From assembly GCA_021462855.1 (NCBI GenBank), contig JAJTXQ010000014.1, positions 1-42,041 of the forward strand: a stretch of DNA of 42,041 nt, given 5' to 3'. This document shows positions 6,235-10,038 of the stretch, piece after piece. Numbering within the stretch: the stretch's first letter is position 1; each line of letters begins with the position of its first letter. The position numbers were made by a program, and so were the translations under genes. The notes under the pieces are model-generated. The model searched no databases. It saw only the letters and a list, made by a program, of their open reading frames with translations, and was not told the DNA's origin. The DNA comes from Dehalococcoidia bacterium. Lineage in GTDB: Bacteria > Chloroflexota > Dehalococcoidia > DSTF01 > JACRBR01.

Positions 6235-7041
6235 ATGCCACGCAAGAAGCAGATCGTACAGAAGCAGAAGCGCCGCAAGGTCTATCGCGCCGGTGACATG
6301 GCCGGCTCGGCCGAGCGGATCCACCGCCGGGGCATCTTCCGGCTCTTCACGAACTACCGCGTGTTCGCCATCATCGGCGCCATCGGCATCATCGGCGGGC
6401 TCGCCTTCTCGGCGTTCTACACCGGCGGCAGCGCAAACAACGACACCGGTAGCCCGCGCGGCTCCGGCGTCACCCGCACCACGCCCGAAGCGGGCGCGAC
6501 GAGCGTGACCGGCGCCGCGGCAAACATCAAGCAGTACTCCTTCGCGCCGGAGATGGCGATCGACCCGGCGAAGACGTACACCGCGACGATCAAGACCGAC
6601 AAGGGCGACATCAAGGTCGAGCTGTTCGCGGGCGAGGCGCCGCAGACCGTGAACAACTTCGTCTTCCTGGCGCGCGACTCGTTCTACAACGGCGTGACGT
6701 TCCACCGGGTCATCCCGGACTTCGTCGCGCAGGCAGGCGACCCGACAGGGACCGGCACCGGCGGGCCCGGCTACGAGCTCCCCGCCGAGGCCACCGAAGA
6801 GGACTTCACCGCCGGCGTCATCGCCATGGCGAAGCCGCAGGAGGCGGGCTCGCCGAATAACGGCAGCCAGTTCTTCTTCATGCTGAACGATGAGCCGTCG
6901 TTCGATGGCAAGTTCACCGCGTTCGGCAAGGTCGTCGAAGGGCTCGATGTCCTGAAGTCGCTCACACCGCGCAACCCGCAGCTCGAAGAGAACCCGGCGC
7001 CCGGCGACCGCATCGAGTCGATCACGATCGCCGAGTCCTGA
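6235..7041 (+). CDS. membrane-anchored cyclophilin-type peptidyl-prolyl isomerase
   Basis: 268 aa. A lysine/arginine-rich cytoplasmic N-terminus (about 45 residues) is followed by one transmembrane helix around FAIIGAIGIIGGLAFSAF, a Thr/Ser/Gly linker, and a cyclophilin domain from about residue 105. Signatures are GDIKVELFAGEAPQTVNNF, FYNGVTFHRVIPDFVAQAGD and NNGSQFFFML, containing the catalytic Arg and the conserved FFxx core. The topology puts the isomerase outside the membrane, where it would assist folding of exported proteins. No neighbouring secretion genes are seen. Confidence 0.93.
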   Translation: MPRKKQIVQKQKRRKVYRAGDMAGSAERIHRRGIFRLFTNYRVFAIIGAIGIIGGLAFSAFYTGGSANNDTGSPRGSGVTRTTPEAGATSVTGAAANIKQYSFAPEMAIDPAKTYTATIKTDKGDIKVELFAGEAPQTVNNFVFLARDSFYNGVTFHRVIPDFVAQAGDPTGTGTGGPGYELPAEATEEDFTAGVIAMAKPQEAGSPNNGSQFFFMLNDEPSFDGKFTAFGKVVEGLDVLKSLTPRNPQLEENPAPGDRIESITIAES

Positions 7042-7060: not shown

Positions 7061-7100
7061 ACGGCAAGACGCCGCCGGTGCACCGGCGGCGTCTTGCCGT
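7061..7100. terminator. perfect 40-bp palindrome, bidirectional terminator
   Basis: Twenty bases (7061-7080, beginning ACGGCAAGACGCC) are exactly mirrored by 7081-7100. The structure lies between the cyclophilin gene ending at 7041 and the convergent zinc-ribbon gene ending at 7122. No T-tract follows on either strand. Confidence 0.7.
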
Positions 7101-7121: not shown

Positions 7122-7421
7122 CTAATTCACGGATGCCGCGTCCTGACGCCGCCCGAGCGCGTACTCCGCGCCGGTCCGCACGCGCCGCTCGATGCGCGCC
7201 AGCTCGAACGCCGTCGCGCACGTGTGGCAGAACCGCAGCTCGTCGTCGTACTCGACGGACCCGGTCAGCGGCTGCAGTCCGCCGCAGGCGCGGCACTCGA
7301 ACGAGCCGCGTTCGCCGCGCTGGAGGTCTTCTTCGAGCAGCACGCGCATCGCCTCGGCGATTGCCTGGCGCTGCCGGCTGGTGGCGCGATTGTAGTGGGC
7401 GTACGCCCGGGCGATGGTCAA
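7122..7421 (-). CDS. small zinc-ribbon protein under c-di-AMP riboswitch
   Basis: 99 aa from a TTG at 7421, chosen because AGGAGGT (7428-7434) lies 6 bases upstream; an ATG at 7445 has no such signal. The N-terminal half is predicted helical (AYAHYNRATSRQRQAIAEAM). The middle has CRAC, 18 residues, CHTC, a four-cysteine zinc ribbon, and the C-terminus is again helical and basic. I do not recognise a named family. It is the only gene after the riboswitch and terminator at 7460-7630, and it ends at a strong palindrome, so it appears to be the sole target. RNA polymerase- or ribosome-associated zinc ribbons of similar size exist, but that is only an analogy. Confidence 0.75.
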   Translation of the reverse strand: MTIARAYAHYNRATSRQRQAIAEAMRVLLEEDLQRGERGSFECRACGGLQPLTGSVEYDDELRFCHTCATAFELARIERRVRTGAEYALGRRQDAASVN

Positions 7422-7459
7422 GGCGGGACCTCCTGCTCGCTGCACTCTGTCTATGCGGC

Positions 7460-7491
7460 AAACAAAAACGACTGAAGGCGTGCCTTCAGCC
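7460..7491 (-). terminator. intrinsic terminator of riboswitch expression platform
   Basis: On the minus strand a 10-bp hairpin (arms GGCTGAAGGC and GCCTTCAGTC, two-base AC spacer) is followed by TCG and TTTTTGTTT. It lies between the aptamer and the Shine-Dalgarno of the zinc-ribbon gene. This is the arrangement of a transcription-attenuating OFF switch, in which ligand favours termination. Confidence 0.85.
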
Positions 7492-7504
7492 GGTACGGCC
7501 TTCT

Positions 7505-7630
7505 CCTCTTTATGCCTGCGGGGTTAGCTGACGGGTTCGGCTCAGAAGAGTTCGCCTACGCACCGCTTGGTGCGATTCACCCCATTAGGATTGGTTCCCC
7601 CGCCTCGCGTTCGCGAGTTCGGCTCTATTC
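7505..7630 (-). ncRNA. c-di-AMP riboswitch (ydaO/yuaA class)
   Basis: Read 5' to 3' on the minus strand the region contains the class hallmarks in order: GCCGAA, a short hairpin CTCGC-GAAC-GCGAG, GGGGGAACCAA, GGGGTGAATC, AGGCGAACTCTT, GCCGAACCCGTCAGCTAACC, CCGCAGGCATAAAG and a purine-rich GAGGAGAAGG. These match the conserved core of ydaO-type aptamers that bind cyclic di-AMP; the pairing GCC/GGC closes P1. Upstream is a near-consensus promoter and downstream a terminator. Known members control cell-wall hydrolases and osmolyte/K+ transport. Here the gene is a small zinc-ribbon protein, which is unusual. Confidence 0.92.
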
Positions 7631-7642
7631 AGTTATGACCAC

Positions 7643-7671
7643 AGTATACCGCCCGGCCGACCGCCTTTCAA
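7643..7671 (-). promoter_or_regulatory. promoter of the riboswitch transcript
   Basis: TTGAAA (7666-7671), a 17-base spacer and TATACT (7643-7648) on the minus strand form a near-consensus housekeeping promoter. The expected start at about 7636 places the first transcribed base just ahead of the aptamer. Confidence 0.8.
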
Positions 7672-7698: not shown

Positions 7699-10038
7699 TC
7701 ATATCTGTTTCGGCGCGGTCGCGACCTCTACTACGGCCGCGTCGTCGACCGTCACCTGCACGAACGTCGCGCCGCCCGGCGCATCGCCGATGGCGATCCG
7801 TTCGCCGTTGAGCGTCGCCGCCGCGGGCCGCCCGCCCGCGAAGTACAGCCGGCGCACCCGCCGCCCCGCCGGCGACACCGCGATGCGCAGCGACGCACCG
7901 GCCTGCACGATATCCGTTATGTCGAGGATGCCGGAGCCGATGTGCGCCGTCGACCCCACCAGCTGGAGGCCTTCGCGCGCCGGACGCAGCGACAGCACCC
8001 TGCTGCCGTGCGCCTCGACGGCGGAGAAGGTGACAGACCGTTCGACGACGCCGAGGTACTGCTCGCCCCACAGCTCGAACCCGTGCCATCGCCCTTCGGG
8101 CAGCGCGACCACGACGTCACGCGGCACATCGTCGAAGTTGAACGCGCCGACGACGGTGAGCGGGTCGAACGCGCGGTCGGTCGCGGTCTCGTACCGTTCC
8201 GGCATGTCGCGCTCGATGAGGTCGACGGGCGTCGCCGAGCGCGGCAGCGCGGGCAGCATCATCGACAGGATCTCGGTCCGTTCGGGCGGCAGGAGCTCCA
8301 GGTCATCGCTCGACAGCATCATTCCGCCCGAGAGCCCGATCGCCGCCGCCATCGAGCGCGTCTCATCGAGCGTGATCTTCGTGCGGTCGGTGCGGACGAG
8401 CATGCAGTCGGGGTCGTTGGCCCAGAGCCGCCCGTGCATCCACGAACGCGTCATGGTGTTGCGCACCGCGACTTCGGCGCTGAGCGGGTCGTCGGTCGTG
8501 CGCGGCGGCGGCAGGGGCTGCGCGCGCTGCTCACCGGTGAGGAAACGCCACCACGGCGCCGTGTCGTTGCCGATGCGGTTGCCGTCGAAATACCCGACGG
8601 ATGGCGCCATCAGCGAGCCACAGCCGAGCACGAACCGCTCGCCGACGCCAGCGCGCACCGCTTCCAGCGCGCGGCGATACGCCGTCACGCGCGTTGCCGA
8701 TGGGTCGTGCCGCGTCCCGGCGATCGCCGCGCCGAACAGGAAATCGATCTTCACGTACTCGTAGCCCCAGCCATCGCAGATCGCGCGGAACAGCTCCGTG
8801 ATCCATGCCGCCGCGCCGGGATTTGTTGCGTCGACGCCGAAGTTCTGGCGGTTCCAGTTCGGCACGGCGAGCGCCGGCGCGCCGCCGGCATCGTGGATCA
8901 CCCACTGCGGGTGCTCCTTGAACGTGCGCGACGACTCGGCGAGCAGGAACGGCGCCAGCCACAGTCCGGGAGTGTAGCCCGCGCGCTTGATCTCGCTCGC
9001 CAGCCACGCCATGCCGCGCGGGAACTTCTCGTTCACCGTCAGCCAGTCGCCGATGTCCGCCTGGTAACCGTCGTCGATCTGCACGCAGTCCACGGGCAGC
9101 TCGCGCCGGTGGCGCTCGAGGAAGCGCAGGTTGCGTACGATGTCATCCTCGGTCACGTTAGTGAAGAAGTAGTACCAAGAGCACCATCCGGACGGCTGCC
9201 GTTCCGGGACGCGCGCGCCCATCAGGCGCGCGAGCGCACCGCCGTAGCGCGCGAGCTGTTCGTTCGGCGCGCCGGCGAGGTCGACGGCGACGTAGTCGGA
9301 CCAGATCGTGGCGCCTGGATCGAGCGGGATCCCGTCGGCCAGGCAACGTGCGTCGATCGCGCGTGCCGGCGTGTCGATGGCGACCTGCGTGAAGTAACCG
9401 CGCGCGGTGACGGCGCCGCAGAGCAGCGAGCGCCCCGACGCCGGATCGAATAACACCGCGACGTCGTCGCTCGCGAACCGGCCGGGATCGCGCTCCGGCG
9501 GTTCCGGCGCAAGGACGGGGGGAGCGCTCTGCACGTCGCGCTGAGCGCCGCCGAGCGACATCGTCGGCGCCCACGACTGCCAGCCATTGCGGTAGACCCG
9601 CCAGCGCTGCGGCTTCGCGTCGAGGCGGATGCGGGCGCGCCCTTCGCCGCTCGCGAACGGATGCAGCGAATCGAGCGGCAGCGGCGTTGCCGCCTCGCTC
9701 GTCACCCCGACGCGTGTCACGGCGAACGGATGGGCGTCGTACAACACGACCTCGCGGCGGATCACCAGCGCACGCCGGGCGTCGCGCGATGTGAGGACAA
9801 TGCGGCGGCCCGCGCCCAGATCGTCGCTGTGCGGCTGCACGTCGTACTCGGCGCGCGCGAACGTCAGCGGATGCGCATCGAGAAACCGCACGGACGCCGT
9901 CGCGCGCTCGATCGGACGGAACGCGCCGTCGAGCGCGATGGGCGAGATCGTGCCGTCATCGAGCCGCGTCTCGACGCGCAGCCACGCGTTCTGGAGCCAC
10001 GGTCCGTGCCGCCCCAGCCCCGACGTCACCTCCATCAT
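7699..10038 (-). CDS. alpha-galactosidase (glycoside hydrolase family 36)
   Basis: 779 aa. It hydrolyses terminal alpha-galactosides (raffinose-type oligosaccharides or galactolipids) with retention. An N-terminal beta-sandwich (to about 270) precedes a TIM barrel with GWCSWYYFF (from 284), QIDDGYQADIGDW (320), YVKIDFLFG (nucleophile Asp about 432) and GNDTAPWW (acid/base Asp about 492), then a C-terminal beta domain. There is no signal peptide, so it is likely cytoplasmic. Its ATG overlaps the stop of the DUF421 gene (ATGA), making it the last gene of a long operon of unrelated housekeeping functions. No sugar transporter or regulator is nearby. Confidence 0.92.
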   Translation of the reverse strand: MMEVTSGLGRHGPWLQNAWLRVETRLDDGTISPIALDGAFRPIERATASVRFLDAHPLTFARAEYDVQPHSDDLGAGRRIVLTSRDARRALVIRREVVLYDAHPFAVTRVGVTSEAATPLPLDSLHPFASGEGRARIRLDAKPQRWRVYRNGWQSWAPTMSLGGAQRDVQSAPPVLAPEPPERDPGRFASDDVAVLFDPASGRSLLCGAVTARGYFTQVAIDTPARAIDARCLADGIPLDPGATIWSDYVAVDLAGAPNEQLARYGGALARLMGARVPERQPSGWCSWYYFFTNVTEDDIVRNLRFLERHRRELPVDCVQIDDGYQADIGDWLTVNEKFPRGMAWLASEIKRAGYTPGLWLAPFLLAESSRTFKEHPQWVIHDAGGAPALAVPNWNRQNFGVDATNPGAAAWITELFRAICDGWGYEYVKIDFLFGAAIAGTRHDPSATRVTAYRRALEAVRAGVGERFVLGCGSLMAPSVGYFDGNRIGNDTAPWWRFLTGEQRAQPLPPPRTTDDPLSAEVAVRNTMTRSWMHGRLWANDPDCMLVRTDRTKITLDETRSMAAAIGLSGGMMLSSDDLELLPPERTEILSMMLPALPRSATPVDLIERDMPERYETATDRAFDPLTVVGAFNFDDVPRDVVVALPEGRWHGFELWGEQYLGVVERSVTFSAVEAHGSRVLSLRPAREGLQLVGSTAHIGSGILDITDIVQAGASLRIAVSPAGRRVRRLYFAGGRPAAATLNGERIAIGDAPGGATFVQVTVDDAAVVEVATAPKQI

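Follow-up and report, generated by a model that had tools for sequence, protein, structure and literature searches.

Riboswitches of the second messenger cyclic di-AMP (c-di-AMP) are reported mainly for genes of transporters and wall enzymes. The ydaO switches of Bacillus thuringiensis kdpFABC (PMC6488665) and Streptomyces rpfA (PMC10117811) terminate transcription upon c-di-AMP binding. Here I describe a predicted switch of this class (Rfam RF00379, ydaO/yuaA) in a Dehalococcoidia bacterium, where it lies directly ahead of the gene for a 99-aa zinc-finger protein, called ZnR-A. The window, that is, the whole stretch of DNA analysed, is contig JAJTXQ010000014.1 (42,041 nucleotides). As in B. 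thuringiensis kdpFABC (PMC6488665), a full-length aptamer has an intrinsic terminator right behind it, and control by termination would be shared with Streptomyces rpfA (PMC10117811). Unlike the known RF00379 switches, which serve K+ or amino-acid transporters or a cell-wall enzyme, the target here is a solitary small zinc-finger gene. It is reasonably probable that the c-di-AMP riboswitch controls the monocistronic ZnR-A gene by premature termination and that ZnR-A takes part in K+/osmotic adaptation.

As shown in Table 1, the promoter, aptamer, terminator, Shine-Dalgarno sequence and start codon follow one another in this order on the minus strand, which is the arrangement of a 5′ leader with an expression platform. 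The aptamer matched RF00379 over its full length (model positions 1-134 of 134) at 100.2 bits with an E value of 8.8e-23, the gathering cut-off being 38 bits. The promoter was the sole one detected, and 0.0 were expected in shuffled sequences. The terminator has a 10-bp stem at 7492-7469 (arms CGGCTGAAGG/CCTTCAGTCG), and a T-rich tract at 7468-7460 (letters after the stem: TTTTTGTTT). It was also the sole one detected, yet 0.6 were expected in shuffles. Thus, the terminator by itself says little, and its support comes from its conservation in all of the nine ZnR-A leaders described below. A preliminary description of this DNA had proposed the unit of promoter, aptamer, terminator, Shine-Dalgarno sequence and 99-aa gene; the unit is real and was correctly placed, the covariance model agrees with the riboswitch assignment, and the palindrome lies just outside the range that was given for the unit. 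As a riboswitch, the ZnR-A leader is unremarkable within a known class, and the novelty resides in the targets. No literature pairing this riboswitch with a zinc ribbon or with Dehalococcoidia was found in full-text searches, and an earlier mention as hypothetical proteins is possible; the matches for riboswitch together with zinc finger or Chloroflexota were off the subject by title and abstract.

Table 1. Features of the ZnR-A unit (positions in the window)
Feature	Position	Strand	Details	Basis
Sigma-70-type promoter	7643-7671	-	TTGAAA (7671-7666), 17-nt spacer, TATACT (7648-7643)	10 of 12
c-di-AMP riboswitch aptamer (RF00379, ydaO/yuaA)	7498-7634	-		cmscan
Intrinsic terminator, expression platform	7460-7492	-		10-bp stem and T-rich tract
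Shine-Dalgarno sequence	7429-7434	-	AGGAGG, 7 nt ahead of TTG start	sequence
ZnR-A gene (99 aa)	7122-7421	-	long N-terminal helix, CxxC-x18-CxxC zinc finger, C-terminal helix	
Perfect palindrome	7061-7100	.	20+20 nt, where the ZnR-A and cyclophilin genes converge; closes the unit and lacks a T tract	

The aptamer-gene pairing recurs in other genomes. In six-frame profile searches, ZnR-A was found at E <=1e-4 in only 10 of the 393 genomes of the class. In nine of these ten (G000, which is the host genome, G003, G004, G006, G007, G038, G041, G043 and G071), representing four families (f1, f25, f28 and f30), one ZnR-A copy immediately follows an RF00379 aptamer; the linked copy of G043 is a distant one (E 9e-7). 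The ZnR-A copy of the tenth genome, G024, is not linked to an aptamer. All nine ZnR-A leaders retain the core motifs of the aptamer, and all have a promoter-like hexamer pair (TTG..., spacer of 17-18 nt) 8-14 nt before the aptamer match. A strong terminator hairpin with a T-rich tail, starting within 20 nt behind the aptamer, is also present in every one of them, and the hairpin sequences differ. A convergent cyclophilin gene is found next to the linked copy in most of the nine genomes, namely in families f1, f25 and f28. Since this synteny is kept, the most plausible reading of the linked loci is a single orthologous locus that persisted as the families diverged. The resolution of the ZnR-A tree (24 short sequences) is too weak to date the gain. 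The host genome is not devoid of the messenger's synthase: one diadenylate cyclase was found on contig C35 (DAC domain PF02457, 151 bits), and the enzyme is encoded in all of the 15 relatives tested. None of the three refutation tests that the preliminary description had named, on the covariance model, on linked homologues and on the synthase, went against it.

The ZnR-A gene starts with a TTG codon at 7421-7419, and it is considered coding on comparative evidence, because the profile finds homologues in six-frame searches with E values down to 1e-40. Its four cysteines are arranged as Cys43-x2-Cys46-x18-Cys65-x2-Cys68, and the residues invariant in the family are Q, A, M, D, the four Cys, G, Y and E. 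In all five family members at loci L004, L005, L006, L007 and L008, the apparent start codons are TTG or GTG, not ATG, after a GGAGG-like site. In the AlphaFold model (mean confidence score, pLDDT, 85), a long helix precedes a treble-clef-like finger, and helices make up the C-terminal part. Thus, the label of zinc ribbon given in the preliminary description fits less well, and going by this predicted model a treble-clef-like zinc finger between helices is the better description of ZnR-A. As for other origins, PADLOC gave no match to a defence system, and a phage origin found no match, with hits to PHROGs at chance level only.

Outside the class, a ZnR-A homologue was found in six genomes, which belong to families f112 and f102 and represent six genera. 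No RF00379 aptamer was detected in these six genomes, and diadenylate cyclase is encoded in them. In all six, the ZnR-A gene heads a tight operon with a downstream TrkA-N gene (PF02254 at E 1.9e-26 to 6e-28 in five genomes; tblastn in the sixth), and in five of the six a gene for a protein of about 90 aa lies between the two. Across these loci (L071-L076), the order of the ZnR-A homologue, the coiled-coil-like protein of about 90 aa and the TrkA-N-only protein is conserved, and the intergenic gaps in the L071 operon are 14 and 6 nt. The ZnR-A homologues outside the class are connected with the TrkA-N/RCK regulators by an operon shared with a TrkA-N-only protein; ZnR-A is no TrkA protein itself, and its gene is solitary in the host genome. 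Potassium uptake is regulated by TrkA-N proteins, and K+ control is the best-known process under c-di-AMP. Against this background, two unrelated associations of ZnR-A, one with the aptamer and the other with TrkA-N, point the same way, as far as gene neighbourhood can tell.

The aptamer, the terminator, the gene and their conservation are read directly from the genomes. By analogy with the characterised ydaO switches, the ligand would be c-di-AMP, and from the leader architecture together with the behaviour of the kdpFABC and rpfA leaders an OFF switch by transcription termination is predicted. Transcription would begin just ahead of the aptamer. When c-di-AMP is high, the aptamer would be closed and the adjacent hairpin would terminate the transcript. 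When c-di-AMP drops, which in another bacterium happens upon K+ limitation, RNA polymerase would read through and ZnR-A would be made. ZnR-A may then be a small adaptor in the cytosol that acts in K+/osmolyte control, perhaps on a TrkA-N-type regulator. The gene neighbourhood is what suggests this role, and a small adaptor in K+/osmotic control is the best guess for ZnR-A.

Several observations weigh against this reading. A locus-specific antiterminator pairing was not found: the 5′ part of the leader and the arms of the terminator show complementarity (AGCCG/CGGCU and ACUGAA/UUCAGU) that is no better than in cross-locus controls, and own and cross-locus duplex energies are about equal. Thus, the competition of P1 with the terminator is a presumed switching step. 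The lineage with the TrkA-N operon has no c-di-AMP switch, and none of the genomes seen combines the two associations. Additional ZnR-A paralogues without an aptamer exist in G038, G041 and G071. The linked loci, best read as mostly one old orthologous locus, would not represent independent gains. Moreover, profile and fold searches found no function-giving family or fold for ZnR-A. Its Pfam scores stay below the gathering cut-offs (RPB9, 16.4 bits vs 25.2; DUF7575, 16.6 vs 28.5), and there were no significant fold matches in the PDB or among viral models, the best Z score being 4.0 and no Foldseek E value in the PDB being below 0.7.

Is the association with potassium control an accident? The leader could be a c-di-AMP switch like any other, and ZnR-A could be no more than a protein of its lineage whose function is unrelated, with the TrkA-N neighbourhood arising by chance in one lineage. 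That most of the linked loci are one orthologous locus agrees with this explanation. I nevertheless regard it as doubtful, since the TrkA-N neighbour is retained in six genera of two families, since K+ control is what c-di-AMP is best known for, and since the unlinked paralogues indicate that the aptamer linkage is specific to one ZnR-A copy.

Two other explanations start from the protein itself. ZnR-A might be a DNA- or RNA-binding treble clef of the GATA, ribosomal eS26/L24e or ClpX-ZBD-like kind, such as a stress factor that works at the ribosome or with a protease. Its weak structural neighbours are indeed treble clefs (HOIP RING1, Z 4.0; ribosomal proteins, Z 3.5-3.7; FYVE, Z 3.4; the zinc-binding domain 2ds5, Z 2.7), and a GATA-3 profile matched at E 0.84. 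However, all of these matches are at chance level, and treble clefs serve many functions, which makes the proposal unlikely. A role of ZnR-A as a DksA/TraR-like transcription regulator, which would bind RNA polymerase and let c-di-AMP tune global transcription, is less likely still. ZnR-A does resemble the TraR/DksA C4 proteins in having a helix ahead of a C4 finger, and another helix comes behind the finger; one homologue reaches TIGR02419 (TraR C4 zinc finger) over residues 26-76 at E 0.016. This match scores 15.7 bits, far under the curated cut-off of 59.7, and ZnR-A of this locus has no match to the model; DksA/TraR structures are absent among the listed fold matches, which leaves the idea some room.

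Is a small zinc protein behind this aptamer peculiar to ZnR-A? A catalogue of 87 aptamers in relatives was compiled, and the implied uniqueness of the target did not hold, since a second small zinc-ribbon family, ZnR-B, stands behind the same switch class-wide. ZnR-B is about 69 aa long (CPRCRG...CxxCGYVHE...RQRRRQPSHGKLRL) and has no recognisable sequence relation to ZnR-A. Like ZnR-A, it has its gene right after RF00379, which holds for at least 95 of the 136 strong ZnR-B genes of the class (92 with a listed same-strand aptamer 27-115 nt upstream and three confirmed directly); the ZnR-B genes of family f23 are consistently unlinked. Unlike ZnR-A, it is far more conserved, with an invariant QRRRQPSHGK tail throughout the class (e.g., at L142, L160 and L122), and its leaders usually have no clear terminator. 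Thus, ZnR-B leaders probably use another expression platform, and the control is perhaps translational. At L161, a cobalamin riboswitch (2022-2184) adjoins the c-di-AMP switch of a ZnR-B gene and is divergent from it. Two further unrelated CxxC proteins of 60-65 aa are also encoded directly behind c-di-AMP aptamers, at L134 (G034:C30) and L098 (G011:C42). Other targets, most of them named by sequence resemblance, are trehalose synthesis genes (OtsA-, OtsB- and TreT-like), GT2 glycosyltransferases and a PRC-barrel protein; in relatives, genes of the OtsA/OtsB type follow the aptamer repeatedly.

The host genome (3.0 Mb in 76 contigs) carries three RF00379 aptamers. Besides that of ZnR-A, they precede genes for a TreT-like trehalose synthase or a GT2-type glycosyltransferase (L002 and L129 on contig C36; L003 and L130 on contig C30), the glycosyltransferase being 619 aa long. 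Thus, the view that ZnR-A is the sole target holds for its own transcription unit and not for the genome, which has two further c-di-AMP switches. Similarly, of the osmotic or envelope role that had been suggested, the osmotic part is favoured by the TrkA-N operon elsewhere and by the presence of trehalose genes behind sister switches, and the envelope part has no direct support. At the locus itself, the end of a melibiase/GH31-like gene (7699-10038) lies upstream in the same direction as ZnR-A, and the convergent cyclophilin gene (6235-7041) lies downstream.

Taken further, ZnR-A may be an unrecognised component of K+/osmotic control that works with TrkA-N-type regulators, and the regulon of the class may include two unrelated families of tiny zinc fingers, ZnR-A and ZnR-B, whose members would be dedicated effectors under c-di-AMP control; this wider proposal is tentative. 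With a tiny zinc-finger protein as the only product under its control, the switch points to an effector, so far uncharacterised, of a second messenger that is widespread. The idea is based on conservation over several families and on an independent gene neighbourhood with potassium uptake, and the class-wide linkage of ZnR-B makes it a testable theme and not one odd locus.
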